The notes beneath the pieces are model-generated. The model did no database searches, was not told the origin of the DNA, and saw nothing but the letters and a program-made list of their open reading frames with translations. This document shows, in pieces, positions 14,656-34,883 of a DNA stretch of 64,000 bases. Every line of letters begins with the position of its first letter. Within the stretch, counting starts at the first letter, position 1. This DNA comes from Oidiodendron maius Zn (Eukaryota > Ascomycota > Leotiomycetes > Myxotrichaceae). The DNA is taken from positions 868,001-932,000 of the forward strand of contig KN832887.1 of assembly GCA_000827325.1 (NCBI GenBank), written 5' to 3'. Position numbers and translations under genes: made by a program.

Positions 14656-15593
14656 CTATTTCATCCATCCATTTAAATTAAATGGGTACATCGGCACCTT
14701 CCCCTGTAAACTTGCATCATGCGCCAGCACCGTTAACACGTTTCTATATTCCCTCATTATTCTCAATTTGTCAATACTTGACTTAGCTGCCACGGCATCT
14801 TTGTGGAAGCCTGGCTGTCCATTTGGCCCATCTTTGACACTGATACTCCTCGCTTTATCTATCTCAAGCAGATCTTTATGATGACAACAATCTCCTCCCA
14901 TTACAACCCACTCATTTAATCCCGTCCTTGCAAGCCCCATCTGATGGCCCACCATATGCCCAGGGGCGTCAACAAGGTAGAAGCTCCCGTCACCGAAGTA
15001 ATCATATGCTTTCGGAAATGGACCTAGACTTACAAATCCCGGGCCGGAACTAGGCAGTTCACGGAAGTTTGGGTGACTTAGAACGGAGCCGTCGAATGGA
15101 GAGAAGTCGGACGTTGGCCAGCCAGGTGTCGTTGCCGTTGCTGAACCAGCGCCAACAATGATCTCAGATGAAGGGAAGCGTGAGACGTCGCCAGTATGGT
15201 CGAAGTGCAGATGGCTAAGGATGACAGCGTGAATATCACTTGGGTGGACTGGACCGTCCATCAGAAGGTCGTATGCATCTTTGGGAACATGGGGCGTAAT
15301 GATAGGATAATCTTGCCGGATTACGAGAGGGTTGTTCTCCAAGTCCTTCACTAAGTCATAAGTTTGATCGTAGATATTCGGAAGAAGACACTGACTTTAC
15401 GCATTCCGAGATCGAACATCACGTTCTTCCCGCTATGGTGTCGTATTAAAAAGGAGAAATCAGGCGACCAGTGTTTCAATACTGGCTTGCCATCTGAGAA
15501 AATCCATGTGTCCGGGAGATACAGCCAGCCTGTTGGCAGGATCGAAACATCCACAGTTGAGTCGGAGCTGTTAGGGTTATGAAAGTCGGACAT
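14656..15593 (-). CDS. metallo-beta-lactamase-fold hydrolase, lactonase-like
   Basis: Two exons, 15401-15593 and 14656-15350, with a 50-nt intron (GTAAAG donor, TAG acceptor). The join gives VMFDLGMLKDLENNP, as expected in the family. The product is 295 residues. The zinc motif HLHFDHTGD lies at residues 111-119, with later ligands in the DAPGHMVGHQ and GGDCCHH regions and LAHDASL near the end. This layout matches the MBL proteins related to quorum-quenching lactonases (AttM/AiiB type). Such enzymes open lactones or act on related esters; the substrate here is unknown. It sits just outside the aromatic cluster, divergent from the FAH-family gene, and could be its first member. Confidence 0.85.
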
Positions 15594-16378
15594 GTTGGAT
15601 AAACACTGGAACTACGAAGTCGAAATTATTCTGAAACGGAATTTCTAGAAACTTAACAATGAGAATGTAGCGCTTCAAAACAGGGCAGATTTCATAATCG
15701 GAGCAGAAAGTGGAAAAGGTTGGCGCGGTAAAATGGGATTTAACTCAACTACTTTGCGAGTCTACTGAGTTGGCCCATAGGGGAACGGGGGTAGAACTCA
15801 ATAATCCTAACTCCGCGCAAACGCCCTACGAAATTAACCGCCTCCCCTGTCGATTGGAGGAGAGATATTGGGAGGGGAGTAATCTGCTGCGGAGACTAGA
15901 AGAGTTCGCGCAAAAACATCTTGACGGCCTGAAAACATCTCGAAATACTTTGACATTCGGCATGGCTCGCCATGAGGCATAATAGTGCAATACATTCCAA
16001 CTATAAGGAGATAAGACCAAGAGAAATCAAATCGCGGTATTCCCTCTATCTGCGTTCCCGGTCGCCTGGTGATAGATTTCCCTTCACGGTCCAGTCTTGA
16101 ACACTAACGGCTAATAAAAGCTAGACTACTTTGAAAATACGGGTTTTCTTAAATGTCCCTGAAGATCTAAGTTGCCGCTCTCGAAAGAATGTAATCTGAC
16201 CAAGGAAGTCGGAAGCTTTACCCGTGTGCCACCTTGAGATCCCGATGACTCCCCGGATTCTACATCTCATGTGAAGCTAGCCCACAACTACAATGTAATA
16301 TGTAGGTCGGCGAAGCGGCTAATTTATGGTCTATTTTTTAATTCAGAGATCCTCATTCATTTGTCAATCATCTATAAA
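15594..16378. other. divergent intergenic region of MBL hydrolase and FAH-family gene
   Basis: A 785-bp gap between divergently transcribed genes. A 90-codon frame at 15710-15982 has no recognisable feature and is treated as chance. Confidence 0.5.
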
Positions 16379-17374
16379 ATGGTTGTATGGGAGCGCTTAA
16401 TCCGATTCGTTGCGACCGATGGCCGCGTGCTTCGCGGAGAACCGATCCTTCCATCACCCGACTTTGATCTAGGCAATACGGCAATGGAGACCAAACTTCA
16501 AGCTAGATTGATTGTTGGAGATGACCCGTATGATACAGGTGGAAAGACTAAAGTCTCAGATGAGATAGTCACAGTAAAACATTTACTGGGCCCCTTGGCT
16601 CAAGATGATGTCCCGATCTTAAGATGCGTTGGGTTGAATTACGCAAAGCATAGTAAGCTACCGTCAACTTTATATTTAAGTCATATACTTATGATAATTT
16701 AGTCAGAGAAGCTGGACGTTCACCGCCTCCATTCCCATTTATATTTTTTAAGCCCGCAACTTGTATAACGGATCACAATGCCGACGTCACAATCCCTAAA
16801 ATATGCCAAGATGATCAAGCAGACTATGAGGGTGAACTGGTACTTCATTTTTACTCTCCGTATTAAAATAAAATTTTTCTGACCTTAATTATAGTGCATT
16901 ATACTAGGTCGCGACTGTAAAGACGTGTCAGAGGCTGATGCGCTATCATATGTTGCCGCATATACTTGTGGCAATGACATATCTTCCCGAAAGCTGCAAA
17001 GAGATCCAGCCTTCGCTGGCCGCATTCCTCAGTGGGGATTCAGTAAAGGATTTGACACGTTCGCACCGCTGGGCCCTTGCTTAGTAAACTCGAAACTGAT
17101 TGAAGACCCTTCGAAGTTGAGTTTAAAGACGGCCATAAATGGGGAGATAAGGCAAGAGGAAAGCGTGGCGGATTTGCTCTTCGGGTGTGCGTATCTTATT
17201 TCTTACTTGAGTAGTGGTACAACGCTTCAGAAAGGAAGCGTGATAATGACTGGAACGCCGGGAGGTGTTGGGGCAGGTATGAACCCTCCACAATATCTGG
17301 TTCCGGGTACAATGATGGAAGTGCAGATATCACAAATTGGAACATTGAGGAATGGAGTCAAATTTGTGAAATGA
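16379..17374 (+). CDS. fumarylacetoacetate hydrolase family enzyme (fumarylpyruvate hydrolase-like)
   Basis: Three exons: 16379-16652, 16703-16839 and 16895-17374. The introns are 50 and 55 nt, one with an atypical GTACTT donor. The product is 296 residues. The joins give CVGLNYAKHIREAGRSPPPF and DYEGELCIILGRDCKDV, both standard for the FAH fold. YEGEL carries the ExE metal ligands and GFDTFAPLGPCL the next block, with VIMTGTPGGVGAGMNPP near the end. In gentisate catabolism an enzyme of this family cleaves fumarylpyruvate (or maleylpyruvate) to pyruvate plus fumarate or maleate. The neighbouring gentisate dioxygenase makes that role the best guess. An acylpyruvase or a 2-oxo-acid isomerase is the alternative. 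Confidence 0.9.
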
Positions 17375-17591
17375 GATTAACTGAGTATATCAGACCATTT
17401 TACTTATGATTAAAGTTCTGCTGTTATACGCACAAACATTGATTGGTCAGGTTTAGAGATTATTATTGGTTCCGGGATAATAATTTGCTTTTGTGCTAAT
17501 AGAACACCTAACCCCCGGAGTAAATCTATCATGCTCCTATACAAGCTACTATTCTCTATAAAATCAGCCTCGTGCGTGGTTGCCGTCTAGT

Positions 17592-19207
17592 TCAGAAAGC
17601 TTCGCCATGATGAGTCTCTTTTGCATCATCATATTTTCCAGCAGTCCAGGCCCTGATTGCCTTCCCTTTCCACCACAATACCGCCATTAGCATATGGGCA
17701 ACCCCGATAATAGCAGCAAGCACACCAAACGGTACTGCATAGCCTGCATTTCCATTCCATGGAATAATTGCATAAGAGATACCAAATGCAGCGACATTTT
17801 TGAAGCCATTGACGACAACTAGAGTGGCATCGCCACGTGCGAGGTACACGTCGATCAGGTATGCGAAAGTAAGGCTGTTGGCACAGACAAATCCAAACAT
17901 ATTTCCGAAAGTTCCAATAAGTGGGACAAACCAGTGGCATTGTCTTTCGGTGCAGGTTCCAAAGAGAATTGTTCCCGCTATTCCGGCAACGCAGGATATG
18001 ATCAGGAAAGGGAGCCGTTGCTCCGGTTGGTAAGTACTGGATTTTGCCGCGCGAGCAAGGTACATATCTTGGAAGCTACAATATGTCATCGCAGCTAATA
18101 CGCCTAGCAGTGGTGCAAAGAAAGTCAATGCTGTTGCACCGTCTGAGAATTTGTAGACAGTAGCATATGAGATGGATTGAGTTGTCTGCAATCACAGTCA
18201 GCGTGTTTGGCTTGCATAACATAAAGGAAGGTGTAGCTACGAGGATATAACTGGTAACAAGTAGATACAACGAAAAGTAGACTGTTACAAGCACCACAAC
18301 AGGGTGCCGAAGATACCGGAATGGATATAGGAATGCCACCGTGAAACTTGTGAATTATTAGTATAAAATATCATTAGAAGATGAAATCTTACCGATGGAC
18401 TTTTGCACGCCCGCCCCCTGACACTCGAGTGAACTTAAATTCTTGGGTCAAGCTCCTTCTCTTGACTGCATGGTTGAGGTCTGAGGTATACTGCGTCTCT
18501 GGAAAGATGCAGAAGATAACTACTGCGATACTAAAGGCTAGGATCGTCATGACCCATTCTGTCCACCGCCAGCCGAGATCTCTGACAATGAACCCCCCTG
18601 CAAGGGGTCCTATAGCGAACCCAGATGCTTGCATGGCACTGATGAATGCTATGCATTTTGCTCGATCCTTCAGGAAGAATACATCTGCAGCAACCTGGGG
18701 ACCAAGAGTCTCAGGTGAAGCAAATGCAATAGAAGCAAGTGTCCTGGCTGCCACAAGCTGGCCGAATGTGGTTGCTTTGGCGCTCCAGATCGAAAAGCAT
18801 CCAGCCACAACGGAACTAAGAAAGAAACAAAGTCTGACTCCAAATCGATTGCCAGCCGCTACCCAGAACAGAGATGAAACACCATATGACAGCAGAGGTC
18901 CCCCCACAAGGTATGTGGTAAGAGTGAAGTCGTTATGAAACTCTGCGGTGATCTGAAAGAAAGCTGACCCAATAATTATCATATTGAATGTTCCAAGGAA
19001 GATCCAGGCTGCGACGGTGATGATGATAGTTACTTTTCGAGTGGTAGACCAGTTGAGTGGGTCGTTAGCGTCGTCCATTGGCTGAGGTATTAGAAGACGG
19101 CCACGCCTGTCGTACATTTGACTGCCCGGTGCGGCGACACAATCTTCAAGACTAGTCTCGACCTGACTTGCTGACATCGCCTCAGTCTTGGAATATGATT
19201 CTGGCAT
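17592..19207 (-). CDS. MFS transporter (DHA1-like)
   Basis: Three exons: 18393-19207, 18241-18346 and 17592-18185, with introns of 46 and 55 nt. The product is 504 residues. A cytosolic N-terminus ends in NDPLNWSTTRK, the entry signature of fungal drug:H+ antiporter-like MFS proteins. About 12 hydrophobic segments follow, with a charged central loop near the exon 1/2 border (KRRSLTQEFKFTRV). The MFS loop 2-3 region reads WVAAGNRFGVR. The middle exon is short and would be missed by frame-only annotation, but it restores a continuous membrane segment (VTVYFSLYLLVTSYILTTQS). Placed between catabolic genes, it most likely imports the aromatic acid or exports toxic intermediates. Direction and substrate are inference. 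Confidence 0.9.
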
Positions 19208-19676
19208 CTTGAATGTTGAAGAGGGGATTTCTTGTCTGGAAAATTATACAATTTCAGGATGAACCAGATGCCGCTCCATATACATATGTTCAGTGTTACC
19301 AGTACCCTTGTATGTCTGAGGCATATTAGGAGAGGTTTGTTAGTACCCTAACCGACGTTAGTTGGAACTTGGGGAATGATATCCGGCAACATTATGTCCC
19401 CGCGACACTAAAAATAAGAATGCGGGAAAACATGGAAAGGCGGGTTGCATCACCCATGATAATCTTAGTCACAGGGTTTGAAATGCATTTTAGTGCAGAC
19501 TTCAGGGGATGGGACGGCTGATTGTTGGGCCAAGTATCGTATTCCACAGTTCACAAGTCCATTGCCATACATCTCCGGAACTTACAATCATATCATGGCA
19601 TAGAAGCGTACGCGGCATATGTTGCATGCGTATTCAGAGGGATGAAATTAATCATTCGTAGATAAAAGATTTTTCG
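19208..19676. other. intergenic between MFS and amidohydrolase genes
   Basis: Promoter region of the MFS gene and 3' flank of the amidohydrolase. No clear regulatory element was picked out by eye. Confidence 0.5.
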
Positions 19677-20660
19677 TCATATGAACAGTCTTTCTGCATT
19701 TCCTGCATAGACGCCTTTAATCTCATCCTCGGTCCATAGCTCTTTGGCCTCCATATCCATAATCCCCGCCTGATATTCAATCCCTTCTGCAGGGGTGTAT
19801 GGATAATCACTCCCATATAATAACTGGCTAGGTCCTGTCCACCGAAGCAGACCGTGTATCTGGTTCCCCATCGAGAAACCGGCCAGGTCATAGTAAAACC
19901 GGTTCCGAAAAATATTGTGAATATCTTCAGTGGTGACCTTTGTATTGGAATCTGATTGTAAGACTTTGCTATTAAAGAAGCTGAAGCGGTCGATAAGGGG
20001 TGGAAGCACACCTCCACAGTGTGGGATTAGAAAGGTTATATCCGGGTTCATAGTGACTGTGCCAGACATGATAAGGTTCACTACTGCGCGGGCAGCATCG
20101 AAGAAGAATTCCATTACTGGAGATGGAAAGTCGAGGGGTGTAAAATGTTGAGGCATGCCATATAGACATTGGCAGCCTGTGGTAGGATGGATAAAGACCT
20201 TTGCCTTCCGTCTATTAAGTTCTTTAAATAACGAGTCAAATGCCTTGTCACCGAGGTAGACGCCCTGGTAGTTAGTGAGCAGAGTGAACCCATCAGCATT
20301 CAGCTCATCTGAGGCGAATTTCACTTCCTCTAGAGCAGCCGCGACGTCTGGTAGAGGAAGACTTGCGAAAGATCCAAATCGCCCAAGATATCGTTTACCA
20401 AGATCTGCCGCGTGTTCGTTGACCTTCCTAGCGAGAATTTTTGCTTTAGTGATATCTCCGAAATTCACCCCTGGAGTGCTGATGCTGAGATAAGATTTAC
20501 TTATTCCAGCAGAGCTCATAAACTCAAGGTGTTTTTTTTCATCCCAAGGCGGGATGGTGGGCATGCCATCTGGCTTTGTAATTCCTGCCTCAACCAGAGC
20601 ATTGCGGTAGAAATGCGGAAGAAAGTGCGCATGAGTGTCTATCCGATTAAGGGTCACCAT
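19677..20660 (-). CDS. amidohydrolase-2 family decarboxylase (6-methylsalicylate decarboxylase-like)
   Basis: A single exon of 327 residues. It starts MVTLNRIDTHAHFLP, giving the HxH metal pair of the ACMSD/amidohydrolase_2 family. IHPTTGCQCLYG supplies the next His, FLIPHCGGVLPP another, and LLYGSDYPYTP the conserved Asp. The opening (DTHAHFLPHFY then KPDGMPTIPPW) resembles the fungal 6-methylsalicylate decarboxylases of the patulin and yanuthone pathways more than the salicylate or gamma-resorcylate decarboxylases that start KVSLEEAF. The reaction would be non-oxidative decarboxylation of an ortho-hydroxybenzoate, for example 6-methylsalicylate to m-cresol. The substrate is inferred from resemblance. 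No polyketide synthase is present in the window. Confidence 0.85.
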   Translation of the reverse strand: MVTLNRIDTHAHFLPHFYRNALVEAGITKPDGMPTIPPWDEKKHLEFMSSAGISKSYLSISTPGVNFGDITKAKILARKVNEHAADLGKRYLGRFGSFASLPLPDVAAALEEVKFASDELNADGFTLLTNYQGVYLGDKAFDSLFKELNRRKAKVFIHPTTGCQCLYGMPQHFTPLDFPSPVMEFFFDAARAVVNLIMSGTVTMNPDITFLIPHCGGVLPPLIDRFSFFNSKVLQSDSNTKVTTEDIHNIFRNRFYYDLAGFSMGNQIHGLLRWTGPSQLLYGSDYPYTPAEGIEYQAGIMDMEAKELWTEDEIKGVYAGNAERLFI

Positions 20661-21237
20661 GATGCTTTCGGCTCCGATGAGACTCTTTGTTAACTTCCCA
20701 GAATGTTAAATTAATGAACAATCGCACGGCTGTGGATAAATCTTCGAGACTCTTTCTACGTCTGTGTTATATTCTAACTAGGTTCAAATCCGCATACCTA
20801 ACGCAAGCGCAGCTCCAAATTTAGTTCCGCTCACTCCCCGAGAGCCATTATTAACAGGTCTCATCTGATTTCGTTCTGTTTTCAAGGTGCTAAGCAAATA
20901 CGACTTGATTGAATACCGCTGAATTTACTGGTTTGATTACTTGCGACTACCTCTGTACGGCTTATATAGGCACTCGGCGGTGAAGAGACTGGAATGATGA
21001 CGGGGTGCTTGGAATGGCAACCTTCGTGTTGGTCTCACTAAACCGGCCATGTGTACCCGCAATGTGGATACCAGAGGCCGAAGTAGCAATCCCATTGTCG
21101 AAATACTAGATGAGAATAAATAGTCCCATATGGTCAGATCTGATCAGACTAAGATTATAGCCCACCACATTCTGAGTTGTTGGAGCATGACTCTAAAAAA
21201 GTACTTAATTTACACGCTTTCTAATTTCATGTCCAGA
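20661..21237. other. intergenic between two minus-strand cluster genes
   Basis: Promoter of the decarboxylase gene, 577 bp. No long repeat or gene seen. Confidence 0.5.
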
Positions 21238-22783
21238 CTAGGTCCTTCTATATTGTCCACGCTTTCTCTGTCTCGTCCAAGCTTTCTCTATCTCACTTTC
21301 TGCGTCATACCCATACGCCCACCACTGGGTCACAGGGTCGCTCCATTGGTTTGCGCTCCAACTGAAACTCCTACCCTCTATCTCTGGTAGCATAGATTCA
21401 TCTCTCAGTCTCTGCTCAGGTCCGTCAGGAAAATGCCATAGCTTGCCATTCAGCAAGCTAGCATCCCGCATCTGCCCTGTACGCTTTATCCTCTCTGTCT
21501 CAAAGACCCCGAGAGCCGCTGGGATCTCTGTTGGGTCACTGATGAGTGAGAGAACCGTAGCTAGTGCTCCGCCGTCTTCAACAGCCATAGCTGCTCCCTG
21601 CGACATATAGGGGACCATTGCATGTGCGGCGTCACCGACGATCATGACTTTCTTGCTTGGCGCAATCCAGGTCCCTAAAGTAGAACCGCTCAATAAGGGC
21701 CACTTGAGAGTTTTATCGATCATGTTTATAATTTTGACTAGTCTCGGGTCCCAACCCAGGAACTCCCTTTGCATTTCGCTAAGGGCGTTTTGTTGTTTCC
21801 AAGTCGCGGGATCTGTGGTATCAACGTGAGAAAGCACCATATTGAAAGACTGTCCTGCTGCAATTGTGTACGTCATGACATGGCGTCCCTCTCCAATCCA
21901 GACATTTAAGGATGGCTTCTCTAGCAGCCAAGCAACATCTTGGTCTGCTTTGATTTTATTGACATCAACTGTAGCCCTATATGCAGCGAAGCCTGTCGCC
22001 ATGGGAGGAGTATCGAAACCTCCAAGAACTAATTTTCTGGCAATTGATTTTATACCTGAGTACTTAGCGATTGAATTAACATGCAAGATAATGTGTCTTA
22101 CCATCAGCAGCCACAACTAGATCCGCAAGAAATACTTCTCCTGTCTCTACTTTCACACTAGGAGCCTCCAAATCATACTCTACAACACGACTCGCAACTC
22201 TCACATCCACACCTAACTCCAGAGCTCTTCGGTGCAGAGCCGCATGGAAGTGAGCTCGATGTACTACGTAATATGGAGCTTTAAAGTTCTCTCGGAAGTC
22301 CGGCACTAACTTCGTGTAACCTATAACATTCCCACTTTCCCATCTACGGAACGTTATTCCGTTTGGTTCTACAACATGAGGATCTAGGAATGGCCCAAGA
22401 CCCCACGATTGTAGAAGACGTGCTGAGTTAGAGGGTATCTGTATTCCGGCGCCCACCTGGAAGTAATCAGAATAATTTTTGATGAGAAATATAGAATATA
22501 AACGTACTTCGCTTAGTTCTACAGCTTGCTCCAAGACAACAACTTGGTGGCCCCGTCGAGCCAGAGCAATTGCGCACGCCAAACCGCCCAAACCAGCACC
22601 AACGATAATAATTCGAAGCTTAACCAGAGCTTGTAAAGGGGGTGCTGCGGTGCTTTCCTGTGTAATATTCAGTTTCTCCAGAAACTGCAAAGACCGCGTT
22701 GGGTGTGTGGACACAATCTGTCCTTTTGTAGAAGTATCTGTATGGCGACTGACACTTGATACTGCATCTAAACTTGGTGCCAT
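21238..22783 (-). CDS. class A FAD monooxygenase (salicylate / 3-hydroxybenzoate hydroxylase type)
   Basis: Three exons: 22509-22783 plus base 22508, 22102-22456 and 21238-22055. The introns are 51 and 46 nt. The product is 482 residues. The FAD Rossmann motif VGAGLGGLACAIALARRG is at about 61-78. VVAADG is the DG-type motif and GDAAHAMVPYMSQGAAMAVED is the GD motif. This is the standard layout of single-component aromatic hydroxylases such as salicylate 1-hydroxylase and 3-hydroxybenzoate 6-hydroxylase. With a gentisate dioxygenase next door and no catechol dioxygenase in view, hydroxylation to gentisate fits best, with 3-hydroxybenzoate as substrate or salicylate as an alternative. It is divergent from the dioxygenase gene across 440 bp, suggesting shared control. 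Confidence 0.9.
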
Positions 22784-23223
22784 TGAATTCTAGATGTTTG
22801 GGTATGAGATAAGAATTGGCACCACGAAATCTCCTGATCAAACCATCGAAATTTTGGTTCCAATTCTTGATAATGACTCGAAATTTGGTGCAGCCAAACT
22901 CCGAGTCAAGAATCCCGGGGAAACTTCGGTTACTAGTTCCTCCAGATTGCGAATACGAATACGCCCATCACATCAAGTTAGGTTGTCAACTTTTCCGCTA
23001 TATCCCCGAGGCTGTTTGATCCGTCCTAAACCCTCGTTCAGCCCAAGGAAAACGTCATCTTTTGACTGAGGATTATTGCTATGTCACGAAATTAATTTTT
23101 GAGTCGAAATAATCACGAATCTTAGCCATGCATATATCTGCAGAACGTCCCAATTTCTAGTGTCGCTACATATCATTTGAATATATCACTTTAGGCACAC
23201 GTCATCACCCATTCCGATAATAA
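22784..23223. promoter_or_regulatory. divergent promoter of monooxygenase and gentisate dioxygenase
   Basis: A 440-bp intergenic region between head-to-head genes for consecutive reactions. It contains a CCG-N12-CGG spaced inverted triplet near 22902-22919, the kind of site Zn2Cys6 regulators bind. Such triplets are frequent by chance, so this is only a candidate. Confidence 0.45.
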
Positions 23224-24335
23224 ATGGCATCGCAAGCCAAAGCAATCACTTCTATCCTCGCAAACTCAGAAAATGGCGGCACCAAATCTCCCAATGCCGC
23301 AAACACTTTGCTCGCCAATTTGGAATCTCACCACACCAAGCCACTCTGGACGCAGATGACCAAACTCAACCCACCTCTTCCAAACCCCACAGCGGTAACC
23401 CATATTTGGAAATACGATGATATCAGACCGCACCTGCTACAGGCTGGGGAGTTGATTACTGAGAAACAAGCTGAGAGGAGAGTTGCCATGTTGGTTAATC
23501 CTGCGCGAAGTATGTGGCACTGTGTGTTACAGTTCGACAAATCGAAAACGATGAACATTATTACTAGGTAACGTTTGCTGACGTGTCTATAGCCGCGCCA
23601 TATACGACGGATACACTCTATGCCGGCCTCCAACTCGTTATGCCCAATGAAACCGCCCCCGCACATCGCCATACAGCCTTTGCTATGCGTTTTATCATTG
23701 AAGGCTCCGGTGGCTTCACAGCAGTACACGGTCGACGAATTTGCATGACTCGTGGTGATGTGATTTTGACACCGACGTGGAATTGGCACGACCATGGGAA
23801 GGATGGATCAGGGCCGATGATTTGGCTCGATGGGCTAGATTTACCCGCCTTTGTGCATTTCCCAGTGCATTTTGTGGAGCATTATCAGCATAGCAGGTAT
23901 CCTGCCAAGGATGTAGATACGAACTCTAGCCCCATCGTATTTCCATGGGCGAAGATGAAAGCCGCGCTTGACGCTGAAGAGAGTGGATGGGCCATGAAGA
24001 GGTATTTGAGAGCAGATGGGAGTGAGGTTTCCAAAACATTGGGTGGATGCGCCGAACGTTTGATGGCTGGAAAGAACTCCCCTGCTATTCAGGAGACGGG
24101 GTCTTCTGTGTATCATGTGATCGAAGGGTCTGGGCACAGCGTCATCAATGGCGAGACGATATCGTGGAAGAAAGGGGACACATTCTGTGTGCCTTCATGG
24201 CACGAATATCAACACTTTGCGGACAGCACGAGGATAGTGTACTTGTACCGCTTTGATGATAAGCCTATGTTGAAGGCTTTGGGCTTTTACAGGACTAAGG
24301 ATATGGACATTGAAAGTTTAGCTACAGCCCACTAA
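23224..24335 (+). CDS. gentisate 1,2-dioxygenase (bicupin)
   Basis: Two exons, 23224-23509 and 23593-24335, with an 83-nt intron (GTATGT...TAG). The product is 342 residues, the normal length for the family. The first cupin holds the iron ligands: HRH at residues 120-122 (PAHRHTAFAMRFIIEG) and a His in the WNWHDHG block at about 161. The second cupin is visible as SSVYHVIEGSGHSVING and KKGDTFCVPSWHEYQHF. The N-terminal LWTQMTKLNPPLPNP and IWKYDDIRPHLLQAGELI are typical gentisate/salicylate dioxygenase family blocks. It opens gentisate between C1 and C2 to maleylpyruvate. A broader-specificity salicylate or 1-hydroxy-2-naphthoate dioxygenase is the alternative. Confidence 0.92.
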
Positions 24336-24861
24336 GGAGCTGCTTTAGGTTACTGTAGTCAAGAGTAGATAATTAGGTTTACTTACACGTATCATAGCAG
24401 TAAGGAGTATGATGTGAAATAGACTAATTTTAAGTATAGTAAGATGCGAAACCAGTTTAAGTCCAAAATTATCTCCGATTTAAACCCGACTAGAACTATT
24501 ACCAGTAAGGCCGGTGGTAGGTAGCCTGACCGAACGTTTACTTTGGCTTCAAACGCAAATCAGAGAGAGTTTGGACTGAAGCTAGCTTCGTATCCTATTG
24601 TAAAAGGGAAAGGCATAAAATAACTGACAAGGAGTCTAGAAGTTAATTTAAAGACTAAAATACTTTATTTGTTAATACTTAAGATTGTTCTTATTTATAT
24701 GTACTACCAAACAAATATGCTTGAATTTGGACACTTGGTCCTTTGAGCTTACATTAAGTCACTCAATTGCAAGTCGTTCATCACTGGTAATCATGATTAA
24801 ATAAGCGGGAATCAGTGTAATAGTGTAAAGATGTAAATTTACCTCTTGAAGACATGTCCCA
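24336..24861. other. convergent intergenic region
   Basis: 3' flanks of the dioxygenase and alcohol dehydrogenase genes, AT-rich, no gene. The word ATTATCTCCGATT at 24468-24480 also occurs in the alcohol/aldehyde dehydrogenase promoter at 26453-26465. Confidence 0.5.
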
Positions 24862-26311
24862 TCAGACGGGGAGTGTCACCACAGCCCTTCCACTAATCTC
24901 ATTTTTCTGTAGCCTCTGCAATACCTCATCTAAGTCACTAAAGTCAAATACCTCTATTATAGGTTTGATATCGCCCCTAGCAGCCATGTCTAGCAATTCA
25001 TCCATCTCCTTCTCGGTACCAACGGACGACCCAATAACATTAATTCCACGGATGATTAGTTGAAACGGACTGATAGGCAAATCATCCATCCCAAGCCCTA
25101 CGCAAACAAGAGTTCCGAGGTTGCGAACAAGGGAAAGCGCTTGCGCATATCCGGCCTGGCTGTTGGCTAAGCAAATTGCGCCATGGACGCCATATTCTTT
25201 GGTTAATTTCTTAACAGAGACGACTATATCATCCGTTTTATAATCCAGGAAACAAGTCGCACCAAGATCAATACATAATTTCCGTTTGGGCTCGCCTGTG
25301 TCGATAGCAATCACCTTTATCCCTAATCTGTGGGCGATTTGTATACCACTGTTTATGCCAGAAGTTAAATGTGATGTTTAACAGGAGTATACTGATGACA
25401 AGGGAAGACTCACAGGTGTCCAAGGCCACCGCCAGCGCCTGGTAGCAAAAGCCACTCTCCGGCCCTTAGACGTAATTTAGCTATGGCGGAATATATGGTT
25501 ATTCCCGCTGAGCCTCGATTAGAAAGTATTGTGAATCAAAATCTGTCGACATTACTTACCACAGAGCAAAGGAGCCGCTAGTCGGGAATCAAGAGCATCC
25601 GGGATGAAAGTCAGTGGCTTGACTGAAGAGACAATGTATTCTGTAGAAGTAAATTAATGATTTTCTGATAATGACTAGTAATGCCAAATCACTCACGTTG
25701 GAATGTTCCTGCTACATTCTGTACTATTTTCTTAGCATATGTCCTAGGTTAGGCTAACAAGTCGGGAACCTTACTCTACCTGGATTCGTTTGATTTGGAC
25801 AGTATGTGACGTTTTTCGAGCATATTTCGCAGTCACCACAGTAATTATACAGCCATCTATACTTTAATTACACTTTGTTATCGTACAAAGTCCCATGTGC
25901 ACTTACTTAACTCCTACCCGTCTACCGAGCAGATATGGGGATACATTTGAACCAGCTTAAGCATAAACAAGGTCAGATTCATTGTTCGTGAGTCATATTT
26001 AGACCGAACTAGAGAACGTACTTTCAATAATCTGTCCAATTCCTTCATGACCAGCTATATGAGTTGTCATTCGTGTTTGTCCCAGGATGCCATAAACATC
26101 AGAGTGGCTGCGGGCGCCCTTAGCAAATGCCGTGGACGCGACGGAGTCTTTCGTCTCGAAAGACTTACCAGACTCCAGTGCATTCAAGCTTTATTAGCAC
26201 TTCTCCTGATGATGGTGAAGGGATTGGAAGATCATCTCGAATCGTAATGTGAGCTTGGGGACCAGGTGTTTCCACCCATGCCCCTATCTGGGATTTTGTG
26301 GCGGTGGCCAT
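24862..26311 (-). CDS. zinc alcohol dehydrogenase (MDR family), eight exons
   Basis: Exons: 26169-26311, 26022-26107, 25907-25955, 25780-25856, 25697-25723, 25560-25640, 25414-25507 and 24862-25348. The sum is 1044 nt, giving 347 residues in one frame. All seven introns are 50-66 nt with GT-AG ends. The fourth (25724-25779) has alternative acceptors and was chosen by family length. Catalytic zinc ligands appear in LECTGVCHSD (Cys48) and AGHEGIG (His68-Glu69). The structural zinc loop is CGDCEICSKNVTYC. The nucleotide-binding motif is GAGGGLGHLGIQIA, followed by the family blocks GITIYSAIAK and GLGMDDLPIS. This is the yeast ADH-like group. In context it would oxidise a benzylic alcohol such as 3-hydroxybenzyl alcohol to the aldehyde. 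The exon density is the highest in the window. Confidence 0.88.
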
Positions 26312-26759
26312 GAGGTTTGCGATACTAGCACGTGAGAAAGGTGTGAAACAATTTAGATGTCTCTCATTGCACTAAGCTTCCTGATTGTAATTTTGTGCTC
26401 AGTTTTCAACCACAGCGGGGATGGGTCGGAAGTAAACTATTAAGGAGATTACATTATCTCCGATTCTAGCGCCACATGGCATTACCAAGCTGTGTGGAAA
26501 GACGTGGCTACAATTAACAGAGTAGAGCCAGATAGACCAACTCCAGAGATGGCTAACGTCCAAAATAATACCTATAGAAATGATGGATTAAAGGCTTCCG
26601 CTTGATTCCGGTGTGCTCCTCATATCACTGCCAAGGAACGCCGATTAATATCAGACGCTTACTTGCTTTCCGACATTCTTACCTGAATCCAATACTTGTA
26701 GTGGAGAGTTTCTTGTGAAGTATAACTTATCACGCCAGCTACCTCTCAATTTCTTTGCA
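26312..26759. promoter_or_regulatory. divergent promoter of alcohol and aldehyde dehydrogenase genes
   Basis: A 448-bp gap between head-to-head genes for sequential oxidations. It holds an inverted repeat GGAGAT-N6-ATCTCC at 26444-26461, directly followed by GATT. This is a plausible regulator site, unproven. Confidence 0.45.
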
Positions 26760-28272
26760 ATGCTATCCCGACAGATCTCGGTACCTTTAATTATCGACGG
26801 TAACGACGTGTTTCTCTCAAGCGAGGAACATTCCTTCGCCCTAGAGAGCGTTGTTATTAACTCGAAGTTAAAAGTAATTGCTCAGAGCGCAGATATTGCC
26901 AGCTGTCATGCAGCAGTGGATTCTTGTGCCAGAGCATTCGAGTCTTGGAGTCAAACATCCACAACTCACCGAAGACGTCTTTTTCTCCATTTGGCACATC
27001 TTCTAAGGAACCGAGGTGAAGAAATACGATGCATAATGGAAGAGGAAATCCACGCCACACGAGTATGGTCATCCATCAATCTCGAGGACAGCATTCTTAT
27101 GATCGAGGAAGCAGCCTCCCTCGTCACGTCGCCAGTTCTCTCTGGAACCCTTCCACCAGTGCAGAACCCCGAATCACAAGTTCTAGTCTTCACAGAACCC
27201 TTGGGAGTCATTTTAGGCATTGCGCCATGGAACTCCCCACTAATTTTGGGTTTCCGGAGTGTTGTCGCCGCGATTGCAGCGGGCAACACAGCCATTTTAA
27301 AAGGCAGTGAACATTCACCTCGTACCCACTATTTCATTGCATCATTGTTTCGAGATGCCGGCTTCCCACATGGAGTTTGCAATTTCTTGCTTCATAGAGA
27401 AGAAGATGCAGCTCAAGTGTTCGAAACCATCATTGAAAGATTTGAAATTAGAAAATGCAACTTCACGGGAAGCACACAAGTAGGGAGATCAATTTCAAGT
27501 AGAGCAGGGAGGGCTTTGAAGCCATGTCTGATGGAGCTTGGAGGGAAGAATTTTGTCATTGTTTTGGAGGATGCAGATGTGGACAAAGCGGCGAGAATGG
27601 TTGCAGAGGGAGCTTTTCTGAATGTAAGATGTTGCATAAAATGGTATATGGATTAACTAACGTGTCCCTTAGAATGGTCAAATCTGCATGTCAACGGATA
27701 TGGTATTAGTGGCCTCTCAAGTTTATTCAACTTTTCGGCAAGCTCTGCTTTCCATCGTTCAAAACACGACCTCGATACACGTTACTCAGATGATAACGAC
27801 GAAATCTGCGGCACGTATTCGAGGTTTAATATCAGACGCGCATCTAAAAGGTGCGATAATCCATACAGCTTTACAGGATGACGATACGGTAATGAATGCT
27901 AGAGGGACTCATAATACGGACATCCCAGCTACTATTATCGAAGGCATCACACCCGAGATGAAACTTTACACGGAAGAGTCGTTCGGGCCTCTCGTAGCAA
28001 TATTGCGCTTTGGGTCGGTTGATGAAGCTGTCGGCATTATTGGCAAATGCCGGTATGGCTTGTCAGCTGGAATTCACTCGAGAGATTATTATAAAGCGCT
28101 ATTCCTGGCTAAAAAGTTGAAGATTGGGGCAATTCATATCAACGGAACGACGGTGCATGACGAGAGCACAATACCCCACGGCGGATATGGTGATAGTGGC
28201 TGGGGGAGATTTGGGGCAGGATGGGGCCTGTCTGAATTTGTGCAGACGAAGACGATAGCAATAAATAAATAA
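26760..28272 (+). CDS. aldehyde dehydrogenase (salicylaldehyde dehydrogenase type)
   Basis: Two exons, 26760-27623 and 27673-28272, with a 49-nt intron. The product is 487 residues. The start is the ATG at 26760 (MLSRQISVPLIIDG); the open frame further upstream begins at a GTG and is not used. The catalytic Glu259 lies in MELGGKN and the catalytic Cys293 in NGQICMST, right after the splice. Cofactor-site blocks are GIAPWNSPLILG and FTGSTQVGR, with YTEESFGPLVAI near the C-terminal end. Length and the VPLIIDG opening match the NahF/salicylaldehyde and vanillin dehydrogenase group. The likely reaction is an aromatic aldehyde to the acid, for example 3-hydroxybenzaldehyde to 3-hydroxybenzoate. 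It is divergent from the alcohol dehydrogenase that would supply its substrate. Confidence 0.9.
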
Positions 28273-28787
28273 GTTTCGCAAGTTTAGCAAATTAATGGAT
28301 AGAGCCCAATTCAGGAATTATTCATCATTGAAACACCATCTCGTAATGCCGTATGCATCAAACACCAAGCCGCGCAGAGCTAAATCCTAATGTAAGTACG
28401 AGCGCCATTGGTTTCCTCAAGCCGCGCATAGTCACGACTTGGGAAATATCCCGCCTGTGGTCGTAGTAGTTAGACGCTAATCTGGTCAGGTGTTGAGCTA
28501 GAATTAGAATTAGATAGCAGCTCGTTCGTTCGTTACGTCACTTAGTTTATTTGTTTATTTCCGCGGACGTAAGATACAATCCCGATATATACGCGACACC
28601 CTACGAGGTCATTTGCTCAACGACAGGTACATACCTTTTCTCCCCACGCGATCCATATTCTCTGGTTCTCCCCGGAATTATTTGATTTGCATCCTGCGCG
28701 CAGCACGCCGCTTCCACCCAGCTCTCGGAAGGATCCGAACCGGCTGGTTCGGAACATCTGCTCGGAAACATCTCCTGCAGGCTGGCG
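28273..28787. other. intergenic between aldehyde dehydrogenase and regulator gene
   Basis: Contains an imperfect 13-bp direct repeat (CAAGCCGCGCA then G or T, then AG) near 28365 and 28420 with CG-rich cores. Otherwise featureless; presumably the promoter of the regulator. Confidence 0.45.
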
Positions 28788-31697
28788 ATGGAGACCTCGC
28801 GTGTCAAACGGCGAAGAATTTCACTTGCTTGCAGTGCATGTAGGGCGAGGAAATCACGCGTAAGTGAAGAGTAGATCTCCCAAGTCTCAGTTCCTGGTCT
28901 GCCAAGGCCCAACAAACGTTAGGTCACGTTTGTCCCCGGGATCTATAAGCTAGTTGTATTTCGTGAATGGCGAGATCTTGATTTGCCTGTCGTTTTTTAG
29001 AGCGCCATCTTCTCCGATCTACCTCGGATAAGAATGGTATAGAGGTGAACTCTCGCTAACGAGAGGTAGTGTGATGGGGCTAGGCCAAAATGCTCCGCCT
29101 GTGAAGAGTTAAGTTTTGAGTGCCTCTATATGCAGTCGGCTTCAAGCTCAAATGTCATTGTCGGCAAAGAATATCTCACTACTATAGAAGAGCGGCTTAA
29201 AATTGCGGAGGAGAATATATCAGATCTGCAGGCATGTCAAAGACGATCACGGAGGCAGTTGAGATTCGATGATGAGGACGTGACAGAGACAATTAATAGC
29301 GGAGCCACTTGCGAAGCCCCAAGTATCCAAGAAAATGGAGTCCTGAATGATGGTAGTGCTGAAGCACAGAACCTAGTCACTCTTGAAGACGAGACAGATG
29401 ATATAGGAGGGGTTATTTTTAGCGTTGAGGAGGACAGTGGCTTTTTTGGTGACTGGGGCCTGCTATAAACTATTTCATAACTAACATTTGCCAGGCCCCT
29501 CATCCAATATCGCCTTTAACCGTCATGTATCCCGTGCCGTGGCTCATATTTCTCAAATCCACCAGTATTGGCCTGACTCCAACGATAACAGCAGACTGCA
29601 ATCAGAGATTGGTGTCATGACTGTCTCAAGACCGCCATCTCCATCAGGTCACCGATCAGTTGGACAGACGAATTGGGGCAAGAATGAAGATCCAGTCAAT
29701 ATATATGCTCTTCCGCCTGAAGACAGGACTCATGAGCTCGTGGCACGATACTTTGGAGATACTGGACTTTTATTCCCATACATCCACGAAGGATCATTCT
29801 GGGAGACTTATAATGAGATGAGAAGTAGCAACTTCACACGGGTTAGGAGATCGTGGCTGGGATTACTCAACGTTGTTATGGCTCTAGCAACAAGCACAAC
29901 TATTGATACCGAATCAAGCGCTGAGAAGCGTGCTCAGGAATCAGATGTATACTATCGGCGAGCTGTGGGATTGTGTGAAAAGCAAGTAATGCGAGGTACA
30001 AGCCTCGAAATTGGTCAGTTGTCTCAAGCTCTTCATTGCCTACGATGAACTTACTATTATAGTGCAATTCCTTCTCGTCATGGGCCAATACCTTCAAGGT
30101 ACTCAGAGATCTGTAGAGACATGGACAATCCATGGCCTTGCTGTTAAAGCTGCTTTGCAACTTGGGTTGCATTCTCCTAAAGTATCGGAACGCTTTTCAC
30201 CTTTGGCACAAGAGTACAGAAAGCGAACATGGTACGGTTGTGTGATACTCGATCGGACACTCAGCATGAGTTTTGGTAGACCAGCAGCTATTCCAGATGA
30301 TTATGTCATTCTCGACCTTCCATGTCATGTTAATATAGGTGATCTTATGGAGTCAATAGACCCGCGGAGAGAAATCAGTTTAAATTTCTTCAACGCCACT
30401 ATGTTAGTCTGCCTTATAAAGTCCTGCTTGCTAAGTGACCACTAACACCGCTAGAACCCTCTATAGGATTATGTGGAATGTCATAAACACCTCATATGGT
30501 GGTAACATCGGTGCTGATATCCAATTAAGCGTTGTTGACACCATATCCCGTACTCTTCAGATGGAACAGCAGCTCGTTGAATGGGAGCTTAAACTCCCAC
30601 CTGACCTAACCTTGCGACATGCGACTGAAGTCCCGCCTTCGCCAGCCAATGTTGATCCTAATGGATCGTCAATAGAAAAGTTCCGCATCATCCTGACCTT
30701 GCGTCACCACAACTTACGCGTTCTCTTGCACCGACCAATATTAGTGAGCTTCTTAGACCTCGCTGGTAGTGAGTCCTTAGATGCAGACCCCCGGACTTCA
30801 ACCCTTCTGCATCAAATAGGTAGTAATAGTATGCAGTAAGTGCTATAAGATTCTTCCTTGCTCCCCTCTGTATCAACAACAAACGAAATATCAAATTTGT
30901 AATCCACGACAGTCAATACCAATCCCCTTTTATATCTTCCTCCACCCGTTTTGGCAACTAATATAAGTTAACTCCATGATGTTTACAGAATTTGTGTGCA
31001 ATCTTCTATAGAGATAATATCTCTCATCAATACTATTGTTACATCAACCGGTGAAAGACGAACGTGGCTAGGTGCCTGGTGGTTCAGCCTGTACTACACT
31101 TTTAATGCTGCACTTGTGCTATTTGCTGCAATTCTGGTGGCCCAGCATATAACTAATACTGAATCTTCTATCCTTCCACTCTCTATATCTCCTGCCGATA
31201 TGCAGAGGTCCTTGATCGACGCAGGAGCCTCGTTACGGCGGCTTGACACTGAGAATAGAATGATTGATAGATGTGCGGGATATGTCGAGAAGCTCGTAGG
31301 TGTATTGAAAACATTGGGTGGGTCATAATTTATTCATAATTACTCACTTCTATGACCGTAATAACAGCTCACTAAAGATGTGCTGACTCTGTTGATAGCT
31401 GCATCCCAACTTTCTATAACATCCCTAATTCCAACTCCAAATATTGCTTCGAATCCCCAGAAACCACTTAACAATGAAGATGATCAATTTAACAGTGATA
31501 TTTTTCAGGCTTTTCTGAATCCTAATTTATCACATACTTCACCATTGGGCATGGACCTTGGAGAATTCTTGTTAGAAGGAGACCTCGAATTTTTAAATCA
31601 GCTTGTCAGCATGGGAGCAGCAATAGGAATAAGACCAGGCCTCGAGACCAGCCAAAACCCAACTGCTGGTGATGATGAAGCCGTTATTGCTGCTTAA
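28788..31697 (+). CDS. Zn2Cys6 transcription factor with fungal_trans domain
   Basis: Seven exons: 28788-28859, 29070-29448, 29495-30013, 30063-30402, 30455-30835, 30989-31318 and 31379-31697. The total is 2340 nt, giving 779 residues. Exon 1 is only 24 codons and supplies METSRVKRRRISLACSACRA and the first three zinc Cys. A 210-nt intron separates it from the rest of the cluster (CDGARPKCSAC). The six Cys are at 15, 18, 25, 32, 35 and 42. A short coiled coil (EYLTTIEERLKIAEENI) follows. The fungal-specific factor domain is evident in the GPSSNIAFNRHVS, YFGDTGLLFPYIHEGSFW, VETWTIHGLAVKAALQLGLH and RKRTWYGCVILDRTLSMSFG blocks. Position at the end of the catabolic cluster makes it the likely pathway regulator. 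Exons 4-7 boundaries are less certain than 1-3. Confidence 0.85.
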
Positions 31698-33002: not shown

Positions 33003-34883
33003 TTACTGAATCCATATTTCAGTGCACTTTGCGCCATCAAATGCCTCTCCGTGCATAATCCCATGCACGTAGCTGTCTCCAATCAATGTCCACCTAGATT
33101 TGATCTTTTCCACTTTTCTCAACACTAAAGGCACCATCCCCCCCTTGAAAAGGAAGACAAAGTCCCCTTTTCGTGCATGCTCAGGCGCCAGTCCTATTAG
33201 ACCTTCCTTCGTCCTGATCATTCTTCGTTGTGTTGCTACTGTCATCTTTGAACGAAAGTTCATAATCTCTTTTGTGGACTTTGTTGATGTAGCCATTGCT
33301 ATTCCTGTACCTACCATGACTGGTAGGGACAGGAAACTGTGGGTCCATTTCAACCATTTGGCTGTTGGCACAAATCTGGAGGGTGTGCGGACACATCTGT
33401 CCCAGGCTTCGTATTCCTCATTTGCGGCATGGAATCCCTGCGGCTTCTGTCCCGCTGACAATGTCTGCCAGAATGCGGCGAGAATATCTTCTTCTGTTCG
33501 CGGGTATTTGCCGCCTGATCGAGCTTTGGATATTTTCTCCCAGCCATTTAGAACACTCTGCTCTCCAGCAATCCGACCAATTCTTTGAAGAAAAGTCAAT
33601 TCGCCTTCGGCCTGATGGCTATGCACCTCTCCAGCTTCTTCGATTTCATCCACTATATGACCCTCGAGAACGAGGACAGATTTGTCCTCACAGAATTTTG
33701 GCTTAGACTTACACCCTCCCGGAGACGCTTCGAAGTCAAACGCGTATTTCTTAGAATGCATCATGAATCGGAAGGAATGAGCGAAGTCTGAGACACTCCA
33801 GTCAGCAACCCAAGACGGGAGATGGTTGAAGCCTGATGCGTTGGAAACGCGAGGAACGCTCAGAATATCTAATACCTTGCTCTGCTGAAGAATAGATATT
33901 GTGAAGTTTCGGTAAACCTCACTGGCTTCAGTGGTGTAGTCAGGGCGAATCAGAAGTGCATCCATTCCGGACTCTTGTGCTACGCCAAGGAGCGAATATA
34001 TCTTGTCTCTCATGTCTGTAGCATTGAAATTCCGATATAAACTGACGAGAGACAAGAGTGATTGCTCATACTTCATTGATACAGAAGCTCGTGCAGCCAC
34101 AAGTTGGAAGATGCGCTGGCAGTTCGTTGTATTGGCCCAGATTCCTGGGATGATGATGGTTGTCGCATAGTCTATAGATGATACGAAATCGTCCCACGAG
34201 ATTGACCAATGCCCACATTCGAGGGCAACTCGTTTCGAGACAGCAACTTCTTGAATGATCCATACCCTACTGAACCATTCACGTCCCAACAGCGCTGAGA
34301 ATGCCTTGAACGACGGATCTAGAGGGTAAGGCAGCCCATACTCCGACTGCCCATTGACGCCCATCTCGTAGTAAAATCGAGTGTCCTTCTTCGCGTCTTG
34401 AGCACTCTTCGCGGATACGAGCTTCCGCATAAGAGAAAACGCCTTCCAAGTGTTTTCATCTTCTGGTCCAAGCCAAATTCTGGTCTTCTTAGCTCCCTCA
34501 TATATTTGCCGCATGAGTAGAACCTGATTGCTGCGTTCTTCTTCATCTGATTGATTAATACAGAGTGCATCTACCCACAGATATATCGACGATTCGGAGT
34601 CACGGAATTGACGTAGGGCAGCGAAGAGATTTGCTCCTACACTTGAGCTGAAGTCGGTACCGGTTGGATGTTTAATGATAACTGGCTCCTGAACCGTGTC
34701 CTTGCCCCAGCAATATGAGAGAGCTTCATATGCTGGATTGTCACTAAGGGCGGTCTCGATAAGGGCACACACAATCTGCTTGTCTCCAGACCCAGGCAAA
34801 AGTTCGAGGAGGCGAATTTTGTCAGGTTTGGTCACAGCAGAAAGTGGTTTATAGCGGTAAAGTTGGAGCATATTCTTGGACAT
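33003..34883 (-). CDS. HET-domain protein, intronless
   Basis: A single exon of 626 residues. The HET domain (PF06985) starts near residue 51 with YEALSYCWGKD, continues with NLFAALRQFRD and LWVDALCINQSDEEERSNQV (about 102-120), then RIWLGPEDENT and WFSRVWIIQEVAVSK. The second half (DKIYSLLGVAQESG, IRPDYTTEASEVY) matches the usual extension of the stand-alone HET proteins of about 600-700 residues. The C-terminal third is a beta-rich unassigned region with GDFVFLFKGGMVPLVLR, which is common in this subgroup. Expected role: allorecognition or programmed cell death after fusion. The gene looks intact. It is isolated between two gene-poor stretches. Confidence 0.9.
   Translation of the reverse strand: MSKNMLQLYRYKPLSAVTKPDKIRLLELLPGSGDKQIVCALIETALSDNPAYEALSYCWGKDTVQEPVIIKHPTGTDFSSSVGANLFAALRQFRDSESSIYLWVDALCINQSDEEERSNQVLLMRQIYEGAKKTRIWLGPEDENTWKAFSLMRKLVSAKSAQDAKKDTRFYYEMGVNGQSEYGLPYPLDPSFKAFSALLGREWFSRVWIIQEVAVSKRVALECGHWSISWDDFVSSIDYATTIIIPGIWANTTNCQRIFQLVAARASVSMKYEQSLLSLVSLYRNFNATDMRDKIYSLLGVAQESGMDALLIRPDYTTEASEVYRNFTISILQQSKVLDILSVPRVSNASGFNHLPSWVADWSVSDFAHSFRFMMHSKKYAFDFEASPGGCKSKPKFCEDKSVLVLEGHIVDEIEEAGEVHSHQAEGELTFLQRIGRIAGEQSVLNGWEKISKARSGGKYPRTEEDILAAFWQTLSAGQKPQGFHAANEEYEAWDRCVRTPSRFVPTAKWLKWTHSFLSLPVMVGTGIAMATSTKSTKEIMNFRSKMTVATQRRMIRTKEGLIGLAPEHARKGDFVFLFKGGMVPLVLRKVEKIKSRWTLIGDSYVHGIMHGEAFDGAKCTEIWIQ

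Follow-up and report, generated by a model that had tools for sequence, protein, structure and literature searches.

A putative variant of the fungal GC cluster in Oidiodendron maius, with an amidohydrolase and an alcohol dehydrogenase added

Gentisate and gentisate-like gene clusters are common in fungi, and their natural substrates are largely open. The main text of Greene et al. (2014, PMC3914699) describes a fungal cluster type, GC, in which fphG, ctfG, gdoG and sahG are fully conserved and adhG, mfsG and sdoG are variable; its authors think it likely that variants place one or two further steps ahead of ring cleavage. We have analysed 64,000 nucleotides of the Oidiodendron maius Zn genome (assembly GCA_000827325.1; 45.9 Mb, 58 contigs), hereafter the window (contig KN832887.1, here C18, positions 868001-932000). 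Judged by their sequences, eight genes at window positions 16379-31697 appear to form a variant of the GC cluster to which an amidohydrolase (AMH) and a Zn-dependent alcohol dehydrogenase (ADH) have been added. Matched by gene type to the main text of PMC3914699, the locus has all four conserved types and an adhG-type aldehyde dehydrogenase (ALDH); for this reason, and because the amidohydrolase and Zn-ADH are additions, we file it as a GC variant. It differs further from the published type in its transporter, which is not of the sugar type, and in having no stilbene dioxygenase as far as scanned. The words “amidohydrolase”, “decarboxylase” and “alcohol dehydrogenase” do not occur in the main text of that paper. 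Since the ALDH, flavin monooxygenase (FMO), gentisate dioxygenase (GDO), FAH-family hydrolase and transcription factor are usual in the published cluster type, AMH and ADH are the unusual part of this locus.

Our analysis established gene content, intactness, a shared promoter word, recurrence at a paralogous locus and family placement. We are highly confident that the genes make up a degradative cluster of the GC type and answer to a single regulator. The degradative role, already proposed in the earlier note, is supported by the presence of a ring-cleaving dioxygenase together with an FAH-family hydrolase, by the shared promoter word, and by the finding of no ketosynthase or polyketide synthase among the eight cluster genes or the 30 of 79 other open reading frames (ORFs) listed in the window that were scanned for domains. 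The same genes and ORFs gave no match to RPE65, the stilbene dioxygenase (sdoG) type.

The earlier note had also read the eight named genes as intact and contiguous, and this holds. The gene models were hand-built and use GT-AG introns 46-210 bases long; every one splices into an open frame, and Pfam agrees on every class. The FAH-family hydrolase (16379..17374, + strand; 296 amino acids, 3 exons; PF01557, 7e-62) is a candidate fumarylpyruvate/maleylpyruvate hydrolase. It is followed by an MFS transporter (17592..19207, -; 504 amino acids, 3 exons; MFS_1), by AMH, an Amidohydro_2 protein and candidate decarboxylase (19677..20660, -; 327 amino acids, intronless), and by FMO, a class A flavin monooxygenase and candidate 3-hydroxybenzoate 6-hydroxylase (21238..22783, -; 482 amino acids, 3 exons; FAD_binding_3). 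GDO, a bicupin gentisate 1,2-dioxygenase with two Cupin_2 stretches (23224..24335, +; 342 amino acids, 2 exons), precedes ADH (24862..26311, -; 347 amino acids, 8 exons; ADH_N/ADH_zinc_N), the aromatic ALDH (26760..28272, +; 487 amino acids, 2 exons; Aldedh) and a Zn2Cys6 transcription factor (28788..31697, +; 779 amino acids, 7 exons; Zn_clus/Fungal_trans), whose last intron was picked from two frame-keeping splicings.

The shared promoter word and the paralogous loci

We searched for gapped words common to six upstream regions of the cluster (3213 bases in total). GGG-N6-CGG occurs in all six, and its extended form CGGGGA-N5-CGG has five exact copies in the 64-kb window, all five within cluster promoter regions. 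One lies 123 bp upstream of the FAH start (16242..16255, -) and one 166 bp upstream of the amidohydrolase start (20827..20840, -); the FMO/GDO divergent promoter holds two (22916..22929, +; 22995..23008, -) and the ADH/ALDH divergent promoter one (26416..26429, +). A site with one mismatch (A for the first C) stands 296 bp upstream of the MFS start (19504..19517, +) and is weak alone, the window having 12 one-mismatch-or-better matches against 7.1 expected. The promoter of the Zn2Cys6 factor itself does not contain CGGGGA-N5-CGG.

The genome holds 203 exact copies of the word (102 + 101) in 45.9 Mb, and the reversed control 342. About 0.014 copies are therefore expected in the 3213 bases, which gives a Poisson tail of 4e-12, or about 6e-6 after correction for all 6+gap+3 words. 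In an exhaustive scan CGGGGA-N5-CGG was the sole 6+gap+3 word present in four of the six regions. Among words with at least seven G/C, a restriction chosen after the word was seen, none of 200 shuffled sets reaches four regions (196 reach two and four reach three). Two results count against the word: without that restriction at least four regions are reached by 9 of 200 shuffled and 28 of 200 random-window sets, and the six-region result for GGG-N6-CGG was equalled by 2 of 60 shuffled sets (and by 0 of 60 random-window sets). Most of the weight thus rests on the genome count and on independent sites at a paralogous locus.

That locus, on contig C10 (892637-901628), is a second gentisate locus made up of an FMO, an argininosuccinate-lyase-family gene, an FAH gene and a paralogous Zn2Cys6 factor. 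The factor is the closest paralogue of the one in the window (44-48% identity) and adjoins the FAH paralogue, with an exact CGGGGA-N5-CGG between the two, and a site with one mismatch stands upstream of the FMO paralogue. These sites are independent support for the promoter word. A related GDO copy about 55 kb away (C10:952128-952588) is truncated and decayed: it matches residues 45-181 only, the following 10 kb yielded no second half, and stops in frame lie past the match. No working dioxygenase was found at the C10 locus. A third GDO (48%), on C1, is accompanied by an FAH gene and a factor. Paralogous GC clusters within one genome are described in the main text of PMC3914699.

Because the word is shared, the cluster looks like one regulon rather than a chance string of genes. 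The Zn2Cys6 factor would activate the set through CGGGGA-N5-CGG, a CGG direct repeat to which we infer that it binds. The word also supplies a motif by which the regulon is testable.

Two other regions of the genome carry related genes. One, on C24 (390001-408000), has an RPE65-type (stilbene/carotenoid) dioxygenase, a P450, an amidohydrolase (31% to AMH), an FAH gene, a fragment of a thiamine-diphosphate (TPP) enzyme and an aromatic-ring hydroxylase; this has the look of a degradative cluster of the stilbene-dioxygenase type with an amidohydrolase in it as well. On C18 itself, 500 kb from the cluster (373166-384010), an amidohydrolase paralogue (45-48%) adjoins an FAH paralogue (43-46%), and an ALDH-like sequence lies about 7 kb off.

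Enzymes and candidate substrates

The closest solved relatives of GDO are gentisate dioxygenases, and the protein is 77-81% identical to fungal homologues among the matches listed, some of them named gentisate dioxygenase. The better of the two NCBIfam families that it matched is gentisate_1_2 (TIGR02272; 268 bits, under the cut-off of 442). Two cupin domains were found, and the HRH and WHDH stretches align with 2d40; we take this HxH...H motif to be the iron ligands.

FMO is less clear-cut. The best of its 93 matched NCBIfam families is 3-hydroxybenzoate 6-monooxygenase (PRK08163; 229.6 bits, under the cut-off of 459), and the salicylate 1-monooxygenase model scores 128.3 bits, likewise under its cut-off. 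Among solved structures the highest scores go to 8gsm (356 bits; named 4-hydroxybenzoate decarboxylase), 8x38 (334 bits; named decarboxylative vanillate 1-hydroxylase) and 8r2t (325 bits), against 157 bits for 4bjy, the Rhodococcus 3-hydroxybenzoate 6-hydroxylase (3HB6H); and where 4bjy has LQY, FMO has VPY (Pro for Gln), matching 8gsm and 8x38. His213 and Tyr217 of 3HB6H are conserved in FMO, but equally in 8gsm and 8x38. Given the decarboxylating solved relatives and the Pro at the LQY position, 6-hydroxylation of 3-hydroxybenzoate is not certain. An FMO related to decarboxylating 4-hydroxybenzoate 1-hydroxylases is also reported for the Scedosporium gentisate cluster, in the parts of PMC8283699 consulted here, and from this likeness the decarboxylating type may be usual in fungal gentisate clusters.

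Among solved structures, ALDH is closest to a salicylaldehyde dehydrogenase, followed by vanillin dehydrogenases; ADH is related to ordinary Zn-ADHs; and the FAH protein matches several FAH-family hydrolases, none decisive. The best NCBIfam matches of the transporter are multidrug/Bcr-CflA types, every one under cut-off, and neither Pfam nor NCBIfam gave it a sugar-transporter match. A genome-wide search for maleylpyruvate isomerase (maiA) listed none on C18 and three above cut-off elsewhere, so that the cluster counts as “gentisate-like” as that term is used in the parts of PMC7842363 drawn on here.

The earlier note called AMH a 6-methylsalicylate (6-MSA) decarboxylase-like amidohydrolase. 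That description fits insofar as the broad family is often so named and the metal ligands are kept: in a 24-row alignment H158, H214 and D285 are invariant and H10 and H12 nearly so, and we take the HxH, H, H and D to have metal-ligand roles. It says nothing about the substrate. Many homologue rows bear the name “6-methylsalicylate decarboxylase”, apparently automatically; because one of them is from Pelosinus, and because the family also occurs in the anaerobes Clostridium and Sporomusa, the name is no test of what AMH acts on. Among solved structures AMH scores highest against 2f6k (161 bits), which is named a “metal-dependent hydrolase”, followed at a distance by 5-carboxyvanillate (69), gamma-resorcylate (38) and 2,3-dihydroxybenzoate (35 bits) decarboxylases, ACMSD (28) and salicylate decarboxylase (23). 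Of the 120 protein matches listed, the nearest 25 are 58-93% identical, with Xylogone (69%) and Scytalidium (67%) the only named species, and identity then falls to about 50% save for one partial match at 64%. A 163-row tree excluded 10 of the 120 proteins (<300 amino acids) and those 21 of the 73 bacterial loci whose matched piece was <280 amino acids or had E >1e-20. In it the window protein belongs to a clade of 26 rows (SH-aLRT 96), to which the other fungal rows are sister. PatG and YanB are absent by name from this tree, and no P. expansum- or A. niger-named protein is among the 120 matches listed, where names are cut short and many rows carry none. AMH is quite likely a decarboxylase that feeds the gentisate route.

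Decarboxylation of a 6-substituted salicylate ortho to its hydroxyl yields a 3-substituted phenol, and the logic of the pathway proposed here is established chemistry. Our best explanation, to which we give an even chance, is a GC variant with an ortho-hydroxybenzoate decarboxylase and a Zn-ADH added, carrying a 6-substituted salicylate to gentisate and ring cleavage. Under this scheme AMH would decarboxylate 6-methyl-, 6-hydroxymethyl- or 6-carboxy-salicylate to the 3-substituted phenol, ADH and ALDH would convert 3-hydroxybenzyl alcohol to 3-hydroxybenzoate, FMO would hydroxylate this to gentisate, GDO would open the ring to maleylpyruvate, and the FAH hydrolase would yield pyruvate and maleate or fumarate. 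Every substrate and the direction of flow we infer. A decarboxylase, an ADH and an ALDH under one promoter word point to a definite substrate class; that 6-substituted salicylates are the natural substrates falls just short of an even chance.

The earlier note had suggested 6-MSA or m-cresol in particular. This is possible, and the m-cresol branch lacks a part in the window. The m-cresol route requires a P450 that hydroxylates the methyl group, so with 6-MSA as substrate the methyl of m-cresol would first be hydroxylated by a P450 coded elsewhere. No P450 was found among the eight cluster genes or the 30 other ORFs scanned, which tells against this branch, and a genome-wide search, whose P450 lists are lower bounds because it scored 92 of 301 candidates, gave none on C18. 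The idea that a P450 belongs to the same regulon was tried and rejected: by eye, none of 19 extended-motif sites outside the cluster has a listed P450 match closer than 3 kb, and among the 100 plain CGGGGA-N5-CGG sites listed (of 203) only one, on C5, lies near a P450, at about 1.3 kb, which by rough reckoning is no more than chance. With 6-hydroxymethylsalicylate, its lactone or 3-hydroxyphthalate as substrate, the P450 would not be needed. A bolder form of the proposal is a dedicated single-regulon pathway mineralising polyketides of the 6-MSA class (6-MSA, 6-hydroxymethylsalicylate and lactones), a degradative mirror of early patulin-type biosynthesis in which the decarboxylase and ADH, added to the GC core, would serve to detoxify or eat the products of competitor fungi. 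We advance this tentatively and think it doubtful. If the substrate were indeed 6-MSA, the locus would show fungal dismantling of a common polyketide building block.

Alternatively, the cluster could serve salicyl catabolism: ADH and ALDH would oxidise salicyl alcohol and salicylaldehyde, derived for example from the salicin of plants, to salicylate, FMO would 5-hydroxylate this to gentisate, GDO and FAH would finish, and AMH would be a side entry. The best solved relative of ALDH, a salicylaldehyde dehydrogenase, agrees with such a route, as does the name sahG, salicylate hydroxylase, that the authors of PMC3914699 give the GC-cluster FMO in their main text. However, FMO scores far higher against the 3-hydroxybenzoate 6-monooxygenase than against the salicylate 1-monooxygenase model (229.6 vs 128.3 bits, both below cut-off), AMH is remote from solved salicylate decarboxylases (23 bits vs 161 for 2f6k) and is left with no clear job, and the fungal salicylate 5-hydroxylase ChNagG, as presented in the sections of PMC12130555 used here, has a Rieske domain and so belongs to a different class. 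We consider salicyl catabolism unlikely.

Another candidate is a generic GC cluster that acts on hydroxybenzaldehydes and benzyl alcohols released from lignin or stilbenes, and in which AMH would decarboxylate some other ortho-hydroxybenzoate (e.g. 2,3- or 2,6-dihydroxybenzoate) from the same diet. GC clusters generally (PMC3914699, main text) and the lignin-induced cluster of Scedosporium (PMC8283699, in part) speak for it, as does the union of RPE65-type dioxygenase, P450, amidohydrolase and FAH at the C24 locus, and it accounts for AMH's own copy of the promoter word as well as a 6-substituted salicylate route does. AMH, however, is clearly distant from the decarboxylases of 2,3-dihydroxybenzoate (35 bits) and gamma-resorcylate (38 bits) that have been solved (2f6k: 161 bits), a distance that excludes no substrate. 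We judge this generic role improbable as well.

Finally, entry through a lactone, by which an intact lactonase-like hydrolase of the metallo-beta-lactamase fold (MBL; 14656..15593, -; 295 amino acids, 2 exons) would open a phthalide (e.g. 7-hydroxyphthalide) to 6-hydroxymethylsalicylate for AMH to turn directly into 3-hydroxybenzyl alcohol, and which would therefore remove the need for a P450, is very unlikely: MBL and FAH diverge from a 785-base intergenic stretch, and among solved structures MBL is nearest to N-acylhomoserine lactonases and 4-pyridoxolactonase, but these matches are weak, none exceeding 44 bits, the intergenic site sits beside FAH and 649 bp from MBL, and synteny gives MBL no support. 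Its membership in the cluster is accordingly uncertain.

Gene neighbourhoods in other genomes and in the window

Synteny among fungi was judged by locus tags and contig sizes in 120 listed matches each for AMH, ADH and GDO, and the statements below hold among those matches. No named fungal species has all three together. On conserved synteny, whose absence the earlier note would have taken as refutation, the result is mixed. A partial linkage was found in black yeasts: tags of the AMH and ADH homologues are two apart in two Cladophialophora species, and in Rhinocladiella mackenziei the ADH and GDO tags are two apart, with AMH elsewhere. In Talaromyces proteolyticus AMH and GDO are on contigs of the same size, which may be one and the same. 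The ADHs of Cladophialophora and Rhinocladiella form one clade, distinct from the window ADH, in a tree that left out 4 of the 120 proteins (<310 amino acids). Tags are not close in Thozetella, Exophiala sideris, Fonsecaea erecta, Penicillium lagena and others. Two findings weigh against our best explanation. The Cladophialophora AMHs that lie beside ADH fall in another fungal clade than the window AMH; and the top matches to AMH, ADH and GDO are scattered both in Xylogone and in Scytalidium, over contigs of three different sizes in each. This scatter argues against an old synteny of the whole cluster.

The comparison with bacteria took in 73 loci that carry AMH relatives. An association of AMH with GDO was rejected there, GDO being found at none of the 73, a further point against our best explanation. 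FAH was found at 17 of the loci (two of which, L056 and L075, overlap and apparently share one gene), an extradiol dioxygenase at 16, both at 14, and FMO also in seven of these, using three queries from one locus (L046) that is itself among the 73. For FAH, 173 matches in 97.1 Mb (14 genomes) give 1.7 expected in the 0.95 Mb of loci; the 14 control genomes were chosen for a dioxygenase-FAH pair, hence this rate is not low, and the control covers FAH only. A Chryseobacterium locus, for example, has AMH, FAD_binding_3, a Glyoxalase-type dioxygenase, FAH and LysR genes. The AMH family accompanies ring-cleavage pathways, though with a different ring-cleaving enzyme. In five loci of Variovorax and Cupriavidus (L042, L050, L051, L052, L054), amidohydrolase, beta-keto acid cleavage enzyme, extradiol dioxygenase and FAH occur together, an apparent bacterial aromatic pathway.

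Beyond the cluster, the flanks of the window carry HET-domain ORFs, kinase-like ORFs and others, and repeats at the locus are short two-copy families only (72-78% identity). Three HET-domain (heterokaryon incompatibility) ORFs surround the cluster, at 5691-7256 (21.5 bits, under the cut-off of 22.5), 33006-34889 and 55809-57374. Near the right end, an acetolactate-synthase-like thiamine-diphosphate enzyme with all three TPP domains (60581-62290, -) adjoins an alpha-acetolactate decarboxylase (63164-63892, +; PF03306, 2e-69); together the two may make acetoin, here in a fungus.

Comparison with described systems

PatG and YanB are amidohydrolase-superfamily decarboxylases of 6-MSA that act in biosynthesis, with a polyketide synthase (6-MSA synthase) and a P450. 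By source-given names only, they belong to the same broad sequence family as AMH; the polyketide synthase and P450 of a patulin/yanuthone-type cluster were not found in the window, among the eight cluster genes and the 30 other ORFs scanned.

Our literature search recognised no paper describing this gene combination. It may already be in print: in the parts of PMC8929692 consulted, Gluck-Thaler 2018 and PMC7842363 are cited for amidohydrolase genes in fungal phenolic-degradation clusters. The Aspergillus terreus cluster ATEG_06711-06714, as described in the portions of PMC7842363 used here, shares GDO and FMO without a maleylpyruvate isomerase gene and is left with “a yet unknown role”; the window differs from it by the amidohydrolase, ADH and ALDH. 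The Scedosporium gentisic acid cluster (PMC8283699, likewise in part) has MFS, GDO, an FMO of the decarboxylating-hydroxylase type, FAH and Zn2Cys6 genes in common with ours. Unlike ours it has a P450, and its six-gene definition, in those parts, is without an amidohydrolase or ADH.

The gentisate GP cluster of Candida parapsilosis, in the sections of PMC8929692 drawn on here, likewise has a Zn2Cys6 activator, GDO, FMO, FPH and a transporter. The activator, Gtf1p, binds GGAN7TCC, unlike the CGGGGA-N5-CGG of the window, and GGAN7TCC, tried as a candidate here, has no copy in the six promoter regions. The two systems are alike in that the activator gene is itself without the motif and that an amidohydrolase is under the same control, although the C. 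parapsilosis gene, which is annotated as two ORFs and descends from bacteria, is not among the six of the cluster. Compared with the GC cluster, the putative decarboxylase and the ADH added in O. maius probably widen the substrate range.

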